A DNA stretch of 64,000 nt from Desulfurococcus mucosus DSM 2162 (GTDB taxonomy: Archaea > Thermoproteota > Thermoprotei_A > Sulfolobales > Desulfurococcaceae). The notes below the pieces were generated by a model. The model did no database searches and was not told the DNA's origin. It worked only from the letters and a program-made list of their open reading frames with translations. The position numbers were made by a program, and so were the translations under genes. The stretch is from contig NC_014961.1 of NCBI RefSeq assembly GCF_000186365.1, positions 744,001 to 808,000 on the forward strand. Reading direction: 5' to 3'. Shown here one piece after another: positions 26,755 through 30,731 of this stretch (position 1 is its first letter; the number at the start of each line of letters is the position of its first letter).

Positions 26755-27621
26755 TTACTGCTTCTTCACGCAGACGAATCCCTGTGCATCCGGGTCGTAG
26801 AAGATGTTTTCGAAGCCAGCTCTAGACAGCCTGTTCCTTATCCCCTTAAGTATATCCGGTGCTCCATGGCGCCTTGGCTCACCCGTGTAATGGAAGAGCA
26901 CTCCACCGGGTTGTAGAACCCTGTAGAGCTCAATGTAAAAGTCAAGGCTGTAAAGTTCACCGGTACTTCTAGTGAACCTGGGAGGATCATGTATTATCCT
27001 CCCAAAGGACTCTGAGGGAAGCGTTGAAACGCCTTCCACGACATCCCTTATCTCAATCCTGATTCTCCCGCTACTTAGACTCCTGCTCCACGGGTTCCTC
27101 TCAGCTATCCACACCACATTCTCATCTACTTCAAAAGTATGCACGAAGCCGGCATCTTTCTCCAGGGAGGCTATGGCCGTGTAGCCTAAGCCCATGCATG
27201 TGTCTAGGACGCTCATACCTCTCCTCACTTTAGCAGCGCGAACCTTAACTAATGCATCGTGCCACGGATCGGTTCCCTGTATTCTATGCATGTGGATTCC
27301 GTTTATTTCAAGCGTGGGAGCCGTGTTCTCCCCGGTTGCCTTCAACTTGTAGAAGCCTTTCTCGGAATGCAGTAGAACCTCGTATATCCTCCCGGACTTC
27401 TCGAGAAGCACTATTCTATCCGGCTCGCTTGGCTCGAGGTCTCCTATACTGGCTTCCAGCTCTCCTATAGTGATCCTGTTGTTCTCCACGCAGACCCTTG
27501 TCCTCGACAAGCCTATGTCAAGTGTAATGTCGACGCAGCCCTGTTGCCTCCTTAATTCTTCCACCGTGAAATATGTGAACCAGTATCCTTCAACAGGCTT
27601 GAAGCGGTTGGCGGCATCCAT
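26755..27621 (-). CDS. SAM-dependent methyltransferase (archaeal COG2521 type)
   Basis: 288 aa. The Rossmann methyltransferase motif I is VLDTCMGLGYTAIASLE (about residues 138-154); motif II acidic residue lies in HTFEVDENVVWIAERNP; motif IV is RIIHDPPRFT, a DPPR variant of the D/N-PP-Y/F motif used by enzymes that methylate nucleic-acid amines. A substrate-recognition region fills the first 120 residues. The target is unknown; RNA or DNA bases are likely from the motif. Stand-alone gene 6 bp downstream of the metal regulator gene and probably the tail of that operon. Confidence 0.75.
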   Translation of the reverse strand: MDAANRFKPVEGYWFTYFTVEELRRQQGCVDITLDIGLSRTRVCVENNRITIGELEASIGDLEPSEPDRIVLLEKSGRIYEVLLHSEKGFYKLKATGENTAPTLEINGIHMHRIQGTDPWHDALVKVRAAKVRRGMSVLDTCMGLGYTAIASLEKDAGFVHTFEVDENVVWIAERNPWSRSLSSGRIRIEIRDVVEGVSTLPSESFGRIIHDPPRFTRSTGELYSLDFYIELYRVLQPGGVLFHYTGEPRRHGAPDILKGIRNRLSRAGFENIFYDPDAQGFVCVKKQ

Positions 27622-27626
27622 GTATC

Positions 27627-28028
27627 CTACCCTTCACCCTGGCTGTATGATGTGTCGAGTGGCATGTATCTCTGGACGGAGGCGTGTGACGAGATACGTG
27701 TCCTCAACTCGTTTATCAGTCTCGAGGATCCCTCGACCACGAGGACCATGATGAAGCCGTCGCGCACCTTGTATAAACTATAGGCTGAAACCACATCAGT
27801 ATACTTGGAGAAGAGGTTTGGCGGCGGGGAAGCACTCGTGTAGGCCACTATCACACCTCTACATTCATGCTCTTTTTCCCCGTGGAGGTTTTCATGTATG
27901 TACTCGTTCAACGCATTGGAGACTATGGTGGATCTATCGCAGTGCAACAGCTCTGCGAGGTTATCGAGTCTCTCAGCTATGTTTGACGGTATACTTATAC
28001 CGAATCTCCTCTTTACATGCCTACTCAT
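27627..28028 (-). CDS. Ribbon-helix-helix (CopG/NikR-type) metal-responsive regulator
   Basis: About 133 aa. Residues 5-45 are a ribbon-helix-helix (RRFGISIPSNIAERLDNLAE then HCDRSTIVSNALNEYI), and the rest resembles the NikR ACT-like sensor domain, but the His/Cys nickel ligands of NikR are not evident. ATG 28028 is the start; it overlaps the permease gene by 8 bp, placing the regulator in the transporter operon. The paired palindromes at 29907-29961 between this operon and the ATPase gene are its likely binding sites, an inference from position and symmetry. Confidence 0.75.
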   Translation of the reverse strand: MSRHVKRRFGISIPSNIAERLDNLAELLHCDRSTIVSNALNEYIHENLHGEKEHECRGVIVAYTSASPPPNLFSKYTDVVSAYSLYKVRDGFIMVLVVEGSSRLINELRTRISSHASVQRYMPLDTSYSQGEG

Positions 28029-28902
28029 GGCGACCCTGCCTCCTAATGAACACTGTGTAAAGGAAGAGGAGTACAAGGATTAAGCCGCTTGCGCCGACGG
28101 GACTCAACCCTTGTTCTATTGCCACGAGGTATCCCAGTGCGGAGGATGCTGTTGATACTAGTAGCGTTGAAAACAAGTGCTCTCTGCTGTTGCCGGAGAT
28201 TCTTGCCCCTATTAGAGGCGGCAGGAGGATCATGACGTGCTCCATTATGTATCCGCTGACCCTTAGCAACCCTATTGTTGCGAGACCTATCGCTGTGAAC
28301 GATGCAAAGTCGTAAAGCCAGACCCTTAACCCGGCGATCTTGGCTGACACAGGGTCGATGCTTATGAAGACTGTTTCCTCGTAGATTAGAAGTACTAGGG
28401 CTAAGACGATGAATGATATTGTCGATGCCGCAATCATGTCGTTCACAGTCATGAGAACAGGGTCCCCGAGCATTATGCTTGACAAGCTGTAGCGTGCTGG
28501 GAAAGCTGTTAACACATAGTATGCTGCAATAACGCCTGCTGATGAAGTAAACGAGACCATGAAGGAGGATACTTTGTTGGGGTCCAGTCCCCTGTAGATG
28601 AAGTAGCCTGCTATGTAGACCAGTGCCAGTCCTATGGGTATAGCTGAGTAATAGATACTCGTGTTGAATAGTGATGCCAGCAGGTAACCCAATGTAACGG
28701 CCAGGAAGCTGCCATGGGTGGAGCCGGCTACAAGGAATTCTAGCCCCCTGTAATATGTTAGTAGTCCAACGGAGCTTAACGCCAGCCCGGTGAGCCAGTA
28801 TACCAGTGTTTTCTCAACCCCTACTGTTCGGGAAGCCTCTGCAAGCAACAGGGAGAAAAACAGTGAAACAAGTGCCAGCAATACAACTCTTCCGCCACTC
28901 AT
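28021..28902 (-). CDS. Metal ABC transporter permease (ABC-3 family, ZnuB/MntB type)
   Basis: 293 aa with eight or so predicted transmembrane helices. The conserved glycine/proline-rich membrane pattern of ABC-3 permeases is visible (LSSVGLLTYYRGLEFLVAG near the N-terminus, HVMILLPPLIGARISGNSRE near 220). It imports a divalent metal with the solute-binding protein encoded just upstream (4-bp overlap) and the ATPase encoded divergently at 29967. Confidence 0.85.
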   Translation of the reverse strand: MSGGRVVLLALVSLFFSLLLAEASRTVGVEKTLVYWLTGLALSSVGLLTYYRGLEFLVAGSTHGSFLAVTLGYLLASLFNTSIYYSAIPIGLALVYIAGYFIYRGLDPNKVSSFMVSFTSSAGVIAAYYVLTAFPARYSLSSIMLGDPVLMTVNDMIAASTISFIVLALVLLIYEETVFISIDPVSAKIAGLRVWLYDFASFTAIGLATIGLLRVSGYIMEHVMILLPPLIGARISGNSREHLFSTLLVSTASSALGYLVAIEQGLSPVGASGLILVLLFLYTVFIRRQGRHE

Positions 28903-29900
28903 TTAAGCAGCCACCTTGATGCAATTAGACCGGCTATGAAGCCTACAATAATGTAGACTACTATCATGAGGTACTCTGAAAGCCCGCTTTGAGCCGGGGA
29001 TGCCCCGGTAACCCCTGCATTATTGATGCTTACATTGCCAAGCACTGAAACCACGTATCCTAGTTTCCCAGGTATGGAGCCTTCAGCCATGGGTGACGGG
29101 ATCCCGACTGCTACCACCCCGTATCGTCTCGACAATTCTACCAGGGTATTGCTCTCGCTTGAAACAGGAGGCGACGTGTAGAATACGATTGGTATGGTTC
29201 CATTCCTCAGCAATCCCTCTACTGTACTCAGATCCAGGGGGCTAGGCTGGACATCGTGTTCAGGTATAAGCGACTTCACCACTTTGAATCCCATCCACTC
29301 GACGGCGTACTGTAACACCGGTGTGTCTACCACCGTGGGCACCCCCATGTATCTCCCATGGCTTTTCGAAATCAAGCGTGCGAGAGAAGCTATCACATCC
29401 ATGGCCTTCGCCCTATAGCAGTCTGCCTTAGAGGGGTTTAGAGCCACTAATGTAGACGTAAGGTTTTCAACGAATAGAAGATAGTTCAAGGGGTCATATA
29501 TCGGCATGTGCAGGTTTTCCTGCCCCGTAGACGGGTTGATGGCTATCCGGAGCCCGGGGATCTCCAATATATTGATCAGGGTGGCGTTCAACCCGCCCTG
29601 CATTACGAGCTCACTTATCTGCATCTCCACGCCGGTATGGCCGGTTGAAACTATCAATGTGGCCTTCCTTAATTTATCGTAATCACTGGTCGACAACTGG
29701 TATTCATGGGGGTCGACGCCAGGGGGAACTAAATAGTCGACACTATCGTTATCGCATAGAAGGGACTTCACATCGTTAACCATGCTTGGAAACACTGTGA
29801 TGACGCGTATCCCGCCTTCTGCAACAGCGGTCTGCGCAGGCAGTATGCTAATCAATACCAGCAGAACTATGGTGACATGAGGGAGTGAGCGTGCAATCAT
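28899..29900 (-). CDS. Metal ABC transporter solute-binding protein (cluster A-I), membrane-anchored
   Basis: 333 aa. A signal peptide (about residues 1-27), a ZnuA-type first ligand motif PPGVDPHEYQLSTSDYDKL (near 60), and STGHTGVEMQIS (near 87) are visible; the usual His-x2-Phe-x-Tyr third ligand site is DTPVLQYAVEWMGF instead. There is no His-rich loop. A C-terminal transmembrane helix (LMIVVYIIVGFIAGLIASRW) tethers it outside the cell. ATG 29900 lies about 25 bp from a TATA box, so the mRNA is nearly leaderless. The metal could be zinc, manganese, nickel or another ion. Confidence 0.82.
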   Translation of the reverse strand: MIARSLPHVTIVLLVLISILPAQTAVAEGGIRVITVFPSMVNDVKSLLCDNDSVDYLVPPGVDPHEYQLSTSDYDKLRKATLIVSTGHTGVEMQISELVMQGGLNATLINILEIPGLRIAINPSTGQENLHMPIYDPLNYLLFVENLTSTLVALNPSKADCYRAKAMDVIASLARLISKSHGRYMGVPTVVDTPVLQYAVEWMGFKVVKSLIPEHDVQPSPLDLSTVEGLLRNGTIPIVFYTSPPVSSESNTLVELSRRYGVVAVGIPSPMAEGSIPGKLGYVVSVLGNVSINNAGVTGASPAQSGLSEYLMIVVYIIVGFIAGLIASRWLLK

Positions 29901-29906
29901 CTATGT

Positions 29907-29921
29907 CACCCTTGTGCACAA
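29907..29921. promoter_or_regulatory. Operator copy 1 of the divergent metal transporter promoter
   Basis: CACCCTTGTGCACAA, containing the perfect palindrome TTGTGCACAA (29912-29921). It lies between the minus-strand TATA box (29922-29930) and the start of the solute-binding protein gene at 29900. It is the exact reverse complement of copy 2. Confidence 0.75.
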
Positions 29922-29930
29922 ATTTATTAG
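29922..29930 (-). promoter_or_regulatory. TATA box of the binding protein-permease-regulator operon
   Basis: CTAATAAAT on the minus strand, 22-30 bp before ATG 29900, directly beside operator copy 1. Confidence 0.55.
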
Positions 29931-29934
29931 GGAC

Positions 29935-29943
29935 CTTATAAAT
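29935..29943 (+). promoter_or_regulatory. TATA box of the metal transporter ATPase gene
   Basis: CTTATAAAT, about 25-32 bp before ATG 29967 and directly before operator copy 2. It sets the start at 29967 rather than an in-frame GTG at 29949, which falls inside the operator. Confidence 0.65.
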
Positions 29944-29946
29944 GCT

Positions 29947-29961
29947 TTGTGCACAAGGGTG
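29947..29961. promoter_or_regulatory. Operator copy 2 of the divergent metal transporter promoter
   Basis: TTGTGCACAAGGGTG, the exact reverse complement of copy 1 (29907-29921), 25 bp away. It covers the expected transcription start of the ATPase gene, just 6 nt before its ATG. Confidence 0.75.
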
Positions 29962-29966
29962 CAGCC

Positions 29967-30731
29967 ATGCTGATAGAACTAGTGAATGTAACCGTTGGAC
30001 GCGGTGGTACAGTGGTATTGAGAGATGTAAACTCCATTATTAAGGGGCCTGGACTAGTACAGGTGATAGGGCCGAATGGTGCAGGTAAGACAACGCTTTT
30101 CCTCACGATTCTAGGTGTGATACGGCCTGTTAGAGGAGTCGTTAGAGTGAACGGTGTCGAGGTGAATGGCGACCCTGGGAAACTGGGGGAGATGGTGTCC
30201 TATGTGCCGCAGAGATTCTATATGCCTCGAGATGCCCCTTTATCCCTCTGGGAGTTCGTTGAAATGTATGCTAAGACATATAGTAGGAGAGGCGGGGCCC
30301 GTGGATCCCTAGACTATGTGAGGAGCAAAGTATCCTCGGCCCTGGAAACCGTGAGGCTACCTAGGGAGGTTTGGCAGAGAAGGGTTAGTGAGCTGAGCGG
30401 GGGGCAACTCCAGAGGGCTTTAATCGCCAGGGCTCTCTCAGTGGATGCGGAGATACTCCTGATGGATGAACCCCTCTCCAACATAGATCCTGAAGGAAGA
30501 GGCATTCTGGCTGACATAATAGGTGAGCTCTCAAGGGAGAAACTCCTACTTGTATCGAGCCACGACCCCATGCTTCTCCTACCCTACACAAGCAAGATAC
30601 TGTTACTCGGGTATGGAGAGTATAGGTATGGTGATCCAGACGAGATACTCACACGGGAAGCCCTCGTGAAGATATATAAGGGGTGTGCCATAATACTCAG
30701 CGACCACGCACACATAGCTGATTGGCACTGA
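29967..30731 (+). CDS. Metal ABC transporter ATP-binding protein
   Basis: About 254 aa. Walker A GPNGAGKTT (near residue 35), signature LSGGQLQRALIARAL (near 145), Walker B EILLMDEPLSNID and H-loop SSHDP are present. It is the ATPase of the metal importer whose permease and binding protein are encoded on the opposite strand; the divergent arrangement is bridged by a shared operator. ATG 29967 is preferred by TATA spacing. The last 10 bp overlap a TTG that could start the next gene. Confidence 0.87.
   Translation: MLIELVNVTVGRGGTVVLRDVNSIIKGPGLVQVIGPNGAGKTTLFLTILGVIRPVRGVVRVNGVEVNGDPGKLGEMVSYVPQRFYMPRDAPLSLWEFVEMYAKTYSRRGGARGSLDYVRSKVSSALETVRLPREVWQRRVSELSGGQLQRALIARALSVDAEILLMDEPLSNIDPEGRGILADIIGELSREKLLLVSSHDPMLLLPYTSKILLLGYGEYRYGDPDEILTREALVKIYKGCAIILSDHAHIADWH

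Follow-up and report, generated by a model that had tools for sequence, protein, structure and literature searches.

The 55-bp element at 29907-29961 of the Desulfurococcus mucosus DSM 2162 DNA analysed here (a stretch of 64,000 nucleotides, called the window below) is probably the compound operator of a NikR-fold ribbon-helix-helix (RHH) protein encoded at 27627-28028. This protein would repress both promoters of a metal transporter in a metal-dependent manner. We put the probability of this reading at roughly 0.82. The pair of palindromes in the element is very probably the on/off switch of the regulator. Judged by sequence, the regulator and its operator form a unit that is found in more than 100 archaeal loci.

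Inverted pair of palindromes and divergent transporter genes

Positions 29907-29921 read CACCCTTGTGCACAA; 25 bp further on, positions 29947-29961 hold its exact reverse complement. The positions, the reverse complementarity and the gap given in an earlier note on this DNA were all correct. The pair is located in a 66-bp intergenic region between the ATG of the binding-protein gene (29900, minus strand) and that of the ATPase gene (29967, plus strand). The exact inverted arms are 16 bp long (29907-29922 and 29946-29961), whereas the longest inverted arm among 300 shuffles of the 66-bp region was 9 bp. The 1,314,639-bp single-contig genome was searched for the 15-bp element, as the earlier note had proposed. 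TTGTGCACAA occurred twice, and both occurrences were in this intergenic region. The core TGTGCACA was present at six further genomic sites, each within or overlapping an open reading frame. A relaxed pattern for further operator pairs in this genome gave five matches. None had a good core and none was accepted; four of the five fell within open reading frames 100 or more codons long, and one (928899-928935) lay outside.

The conserved unit is the 8-bp palindrome TGTGCACA, present in two copies 31-35 bp apart from centre to centre. The earlier note had placed a 15-bp operator pair here; its location was right, and the palindromic core takes the place of the 15-mer as the conserved unit. The CACCC/GGGTG flank of the 15-mer is weakly conserved among relatives and may be a GGTG ribosome-binding-like element. 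The copy facing the binding-protein operon (29907-29921) has its core at 29913-29920, and the copy facing the ATPase gene (29947-29961) has its core at 29948-29955, so that the core centres in the window are 35 bp apart. Both copies were identified by sequence and by conservation at orthologous promoters. The TATA-like box TAATAAAT of the binding-protein operon is predicted at 29922-29929 (minus strand), with its centre about 10 bp upstream of the left palindrome centre. The box CTTATAAA of the ATPase gene is predicted at 29935-29942 (plus strand), with its centre 13 bp upstream of the right palindrome centre. Each 15-mer copy sits between a predicted TATA-like box and the start codon of one of the divergent transporter genes, in agreement with the earlier description. 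Both promoters would share GGGACC, located between the boxes, as a BRE-like stretch. In orthologues, the centre of the TATA-like box was most commonly 10-14 bp upstream of the operator centre.

The genes on both sides encode all the parts of a cluster A-I (TroA/ZnuA-type) ABC transporter, namely a PF01297 binding protein with conserved His ligands, an ABC-3 permease and an ATPase. The metal-binding protein (333 aa; 28899-29900, minus strand; Pfam ZnuA PF01297, E=1.3e-25) has invariant H65, H88 and H131. The start of the permease gene (293 aa; 28024-28902, minus strand; Pfam ABC-3 PF00950, E=3.5e-17) overlaps the end of the binding-protein gene. The start of the regulator gene (133 aa; 27627-28028, minus strand) in turn overlaps the permease gene, and the regulator is therefore probably co-transcribed with the permease and autoregulated. 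The ATPase (254 aa; 29967-30731, plus strand; Pfam ABC_tran, E=1.4e-22) is divergent. In five loci (L052, L053, L065, L069 and L187), the binding protein and permease appear as a single open reading frame of approximately 600 aa.

The best NCBIfam matches of the transporter were the zinc proteins AztA/AztC, below cutoff (ATPase against AztA-like, E=1.5e-36). By profile, the binding protein was nearest to the Fe/Mn structures YfeA, MntA and MntC, and Zn proteins were weaker. A zinc-only reading, suggested by the Pfam name ZnuA, was then dropped, and Zn, Fe and Mn are all candidates for the metal. Other cluster A-I transporters (ZnuABC, TroABCD, MntABC/YfeABCD and AztABC) have the same parts: PF01297, ABC-3 permease and ATPase. 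Their usual regulators are Zur, TroR/MntR and Fur, whereas gene linkage and motif co-occurrence here point to a NikR-fold protein and not to one of the Fur or DtxR family. The genes here are also split between two predicted divergent transcripts, one for the ATPase and one for binding protein, permease and regulator.

Five bp downstream of the regulator lies a methyltransferase-like gene (26755-27621, minus strand), named from the look of its sequence; it had no Pfam match. In 21 of the 21 loci that have this gene, it immediately follows the regulator, on the same strand. It is possibly a fourth gene of the operon and may be co-regulated by metal.

Fold and residues of the regulator

The Pfam matches of the regulator were marginal RHH matches only, and its family was placed by profile and fold. 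The AlphaFold2 model (pLDDT 87.9) had its best PDB matches to NikR, with a TM of 0.77 to 2bj3 (Foldseek E=3.7e-07), and the profile matched 2bj1 with E=5.8e-13. Model and profile both indicate an N-terminal RHH and a C-terminal ACT-like domain, a fold shared with NikR of E. coli, H. pylori and P. horikoshii (2bj1, 2bj3, 2hzv and 6mrj). The score against the NCBIfam NikR equivalog was 21.4 bits, below the cutoff of 105. The square-planar His3Cys nickel site of NikR (E. coli H76, H87, H89 and C95) is incomplete, with the equivalent of His76 replaced throughout the family. H54 and C56 are invariant in 101 of 101 family members and H49 is present in 95 of 101; together they form a His-X4-His-X-Cys motif at the linker that joins the DNA-binding domain to the ACT-like domain. 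Canonical NikRs are without this motif: in L215-L217, both His of the linker motif are absent and all four usual nickel ligands are present. The regulator is a NikR-fold protein, not a canonical NikR. The earlier note had described an RHH regulator in the operon. The RHH assignment was upheld, and fold, profile and residues replace a generic RHH protein with a NikR-fold protein that has an altered metal site.

The NikR-like HxH..C motif was present in 89 of 101 members and missing in a single 12-member clade that includes the window (support 97). In this clade, His-X4-His-X-Cys is the only metal-ligand set remaining. Because the clade keeps the operator, HxH..C is not essential for the system, which makes the linker motif the better sensor candidate. 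We believe that H49/H54/C56 is most likely the metal-sensing site, a proposal based on residue conservation and gene company. In the ribbon, which is expected to contact DNA, the motif is R/K-F-G-x-S/A; its G is invariant and corresponds to an S in canonical NikRs (RFSxS in NikR and RFGxS here). This altered ribbon would fit an operator unlike that of NikR.

The NikR operator is GTATGAT-N13/14-ATCATAC, an inverted repeat of about 27-28 bp in the form GTATGAT/GTGTTAC-N13/14-inverse (PMC545781). NikR resembles the regulator described here in its paired operator half-sites and in being encoded with or near metal uptake genes. Compared with the NikR operator, the TGTGCACA pair is longer by about one turn (31-35 bp) and its half-sites are themselves palindromic. 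Unlike NikR, the regulator here would have a TroA/ZnuA-type transporter as its target. MetJ and other RHH repressors place one RHH dimer on each short (8-bp) palindrome, with two sites per operator. The met boxes of MetJ are adjacent, whereas here three turns separate the sites, which surround the TATA region. Searches of open-access papers found no description of the operator or of the regulator subfamily; this absence is not proof of novelty.

Occurrence of the pair across archaeal loci

The four genes were compared by tblastn with 40 relatives, most of which show the ATPase gene divergent from the binding protein, permease and regulator genes. Two TGTGCACA-like palindromes were found in 35 of 35 intact intergenic regions. 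A weight matrix trained on these 35 loci was then run on held-out loci fetched afterwards. Among the held-out loci with binding protein and ATPase, 39 of 41 had a pair scoring above 14 between both genes; in 1000 shuffles, the 99th percentile was 8.8 and the maximum 15.2. In the other two (L178 and L181), inspection by eye showed a weaker GTGCAC pair with a spacing of 32 bp. The earlier note had made its reading depend on whether the palindromes are kept in relatives with the RHH gene, and they are kept in every first-round locus (35) and in every held-out locus (41, of which 39 by score and two by eye). In a separate genome collection, many genomes of which are shared with the earlier sets, the pair was present in 76 of 80 named loci. 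The four exceptions are two loci truncated upstream of the gene (L270 and L315), one with a weak pair (L318), and one with no pair although the regulator is present (L283), a case that counts against the proposed reading. Four of the 76 pair-bearing loci are labelled Archaeoglobaceae/Archaeoglobales. In MAGs with this label (L321, L327, L330 and L333), the pair occurs with a closely related transporter, and three also show the regulator, which suggests inter-phylum transfer or mis-binning.

The pair follows the regulator. The degenerate pattern, scanned over 61 whole genomes, matched almost exclusively this transporter locus. In genomes without a regulator orthologue, the transporter loci had no pair (best score 8.9) and the binding protein was more distant. 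The regulator is unlinked in G110 (L190), and the transporter there retains the pair at 32 bp, which supports the proposed connection between pair and RHH regulator. In G053 (L254), about 75 kb separates the ATPase gene from the remaining genes and each part has its own pair, which supports control of both transporter halves, as the earlier note had held. The operon is reorganised in L209-L214, where ATPase, permease and regulator face the binding protein; these loci, too, have the pair, with a spacing of 32-34 bp. Some of these pairs do not enclose a TATA-like box; therefore, TATA occlusion cannot be the sole mode of action. In Pyrobaculum-like loci (f23, L200-L208), a regulator of the family with H54/C56 has no transporter adjacent, and the genomes with this orphan regulator had no operator pair of the exact pattern, which also counts against the proposed reading.

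The spacing of the two palindromes is about three helical turns and is not free. Across 1.2 Mb of locus sequence, good sites formed 88 close pairs, of which 67 were spaced at 32-35 bp and none at 12-31 or 36-40 bp. The spacing differs between loci by as much as 4 bp (31-35 bp), which counts against a rigid bridge, since that would not tolerate such variation. Loss of HxH..C as the cause of longer spacing was considered and rejected: the Mann-Whitney p was 6.5e-8, yet the loss is a single event on the tree and counts as one observation.

In acidophiles, the pair was found at an unrelated gene. In G067-G069 and G074, the regulator is kept and the binding protein is not detectable. A pair (31-33 bp) is located at the promoter of a membrane-protein gene in G067, G068, G069, G074 and G075. 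The G069 pair was identified by eye, and in G075 the regulator is a partial match only. The membrane protein occurs in acidophilic Thermoproteota without the ABC system; beyond such genomes, it was found only in Sulfolobaceae and one other family of the class. The remaining 25 permease loci, in genomes without a regulator orthologue, had no pair. Most of them have a different palindrome, TTAGGGTNACCCTAA, at the promoter, which is near-invariant upstream of the permease gene in the Sulfolobaceae-type loci L344-L369. TTAGGGTNACCCTAA looks like the box of another metal regulator and resembles a DtxR-type box. Curated family searches assigned the acidophile permease to no curated family, and we regard it as a candidate replacement metal transporter. 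The protein (L340:580-1506, L338:582-1496 and homologues in L341-L370) has a conserved HGxTPDEHTWPITFSYA motif and a weak LysE-superfamily match. In the Acidilobus-like G067, a second pair (32 bp; L337, about 1501) lies near the start of an amino-acid-permease-like gene, which is possibly a further target of the regulator. In an Acidilobus-like genome (L161:5155-6001), a gene judged by eye to be DtxR-family-like overlaps at its end with the regulator gene, which suggests two metal regulators in one operon.

Proposed mechanism and alternative explanations

We infer binding, bridging, metal sensing, repression and autoregulation by the regulator as follows. One RHH dimer would bind each TGTGCACA palindrome. 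The pair of dimers would span the intervening 25 bp, in which the TATA/BRE regions of both promoters lie, and would probably do so joined in a NikR-like dimer of dimers. When metal is sufficient, sensed most likely at the linker site, the regulator would bind and block TBP, TFB or RNA polymerase at both promoters simultaneously. The binding protein, the permease, the regulator's own gene and the ATPase would be shut off together, and the repression would be self-limiting. When metal is short, the regulator would be released and the complete transporter made. Since the TATA-like box centre is most often 10-14 bp upstream of the operator centre, the regulator when bound would occupy about -20 to -10, where it could block assembly or polymerase loading. 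Both boxes and the BRE-like stretch are between the sites in the window, and one complex could therefore silence both promoters.

The bridging step has the strongest competitor. Two independent RHH dimers, or dimer pairs, might bind without bridging, and the spacing would then reflect back-to-back promoters. We consider this unlikely, at about one chance in four. The window spacing can be explained by two overlapping divergent promoters and the drift over 31-35 bp suits separate dimers; however, loci without two TATA boxes between the sites (L038-L040 and L209-L214) retain a spacing of 32-34 bp, and so do the lone ATPase gene (L254) and the unrelated permease. The NikR fold, moreover, is a dimer of RHH dimers. 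It is less probable still that the regulator is an activator, or that it controls the binding-protein operon only and the copy on the ATPase side just completes the site. The ATPase promoter of L038-L040 seems by eye to lie outside the pair, but the lone ATPase gene of G053 has a pair of its own, and the sites are downstream of TATA. Proteins bound downstream of TATA normally repress.

It appears very improbable that the palindromes are the binding sites of another transcription factor, for example of the DtxR family, with the RHH gene as a passenger in the operon. DtxR-family genes are common metal regulators, and the overlap with a DtxR-like gene in the Acidilobus-like genome would agree with such a role. 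On the other hand, presence or absence of the pair goes with that of the RHH orthologue, even at a non-homologous permease, where regulator-less genomes have TTAGGGTNACCCTAA instead, and 8-bp palindromes suit an RHH dimer. We give almost no credence to an RNA hairpin, a ribosome-binding feature or a recombination feature in place of an operator. GGGTG beside each start does resemble the GGTG ribosome-binding motif, but these G-rich flanks are the weakly conserved part; the conserved part is the palindromic core, which lies at the predicted promoter and precedes the points where the transcripts are predicted to start, and the pair also accompanies the regulator at unrelated genes.

Metal-dependent repression of both promoters by the NikR-fold protein is thus the reading that we prefer. 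A wider proposal is more tentative, and we hold it at slightly less than even odds: a widespread NikR-fold subfamily of hyperthermophilic archaea may sense a non-nickel metal through the hinge His-X4-His-X-Cys motif and bridge palindromes three turns apart across the core promoter, and with the loss of the ABC system the operator of this subfamily may have been transferred to an unrelated transporter. To our knowledge, little is known about the control of trace-metal uptake in hyperthermophilic archaea. The loci described here, more than 100 in number, provide an archaeal metal-uptake unit with a regulator, an operator, targets and candidate sensor residues. The clade of the window is a natural mutant that has lost the NikR-like ligands and kept the operator, and it points to a different sensing site. 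The unit would also offer a simple in vitro system in which an archaeal repressor shuts two overlapping promoters together.
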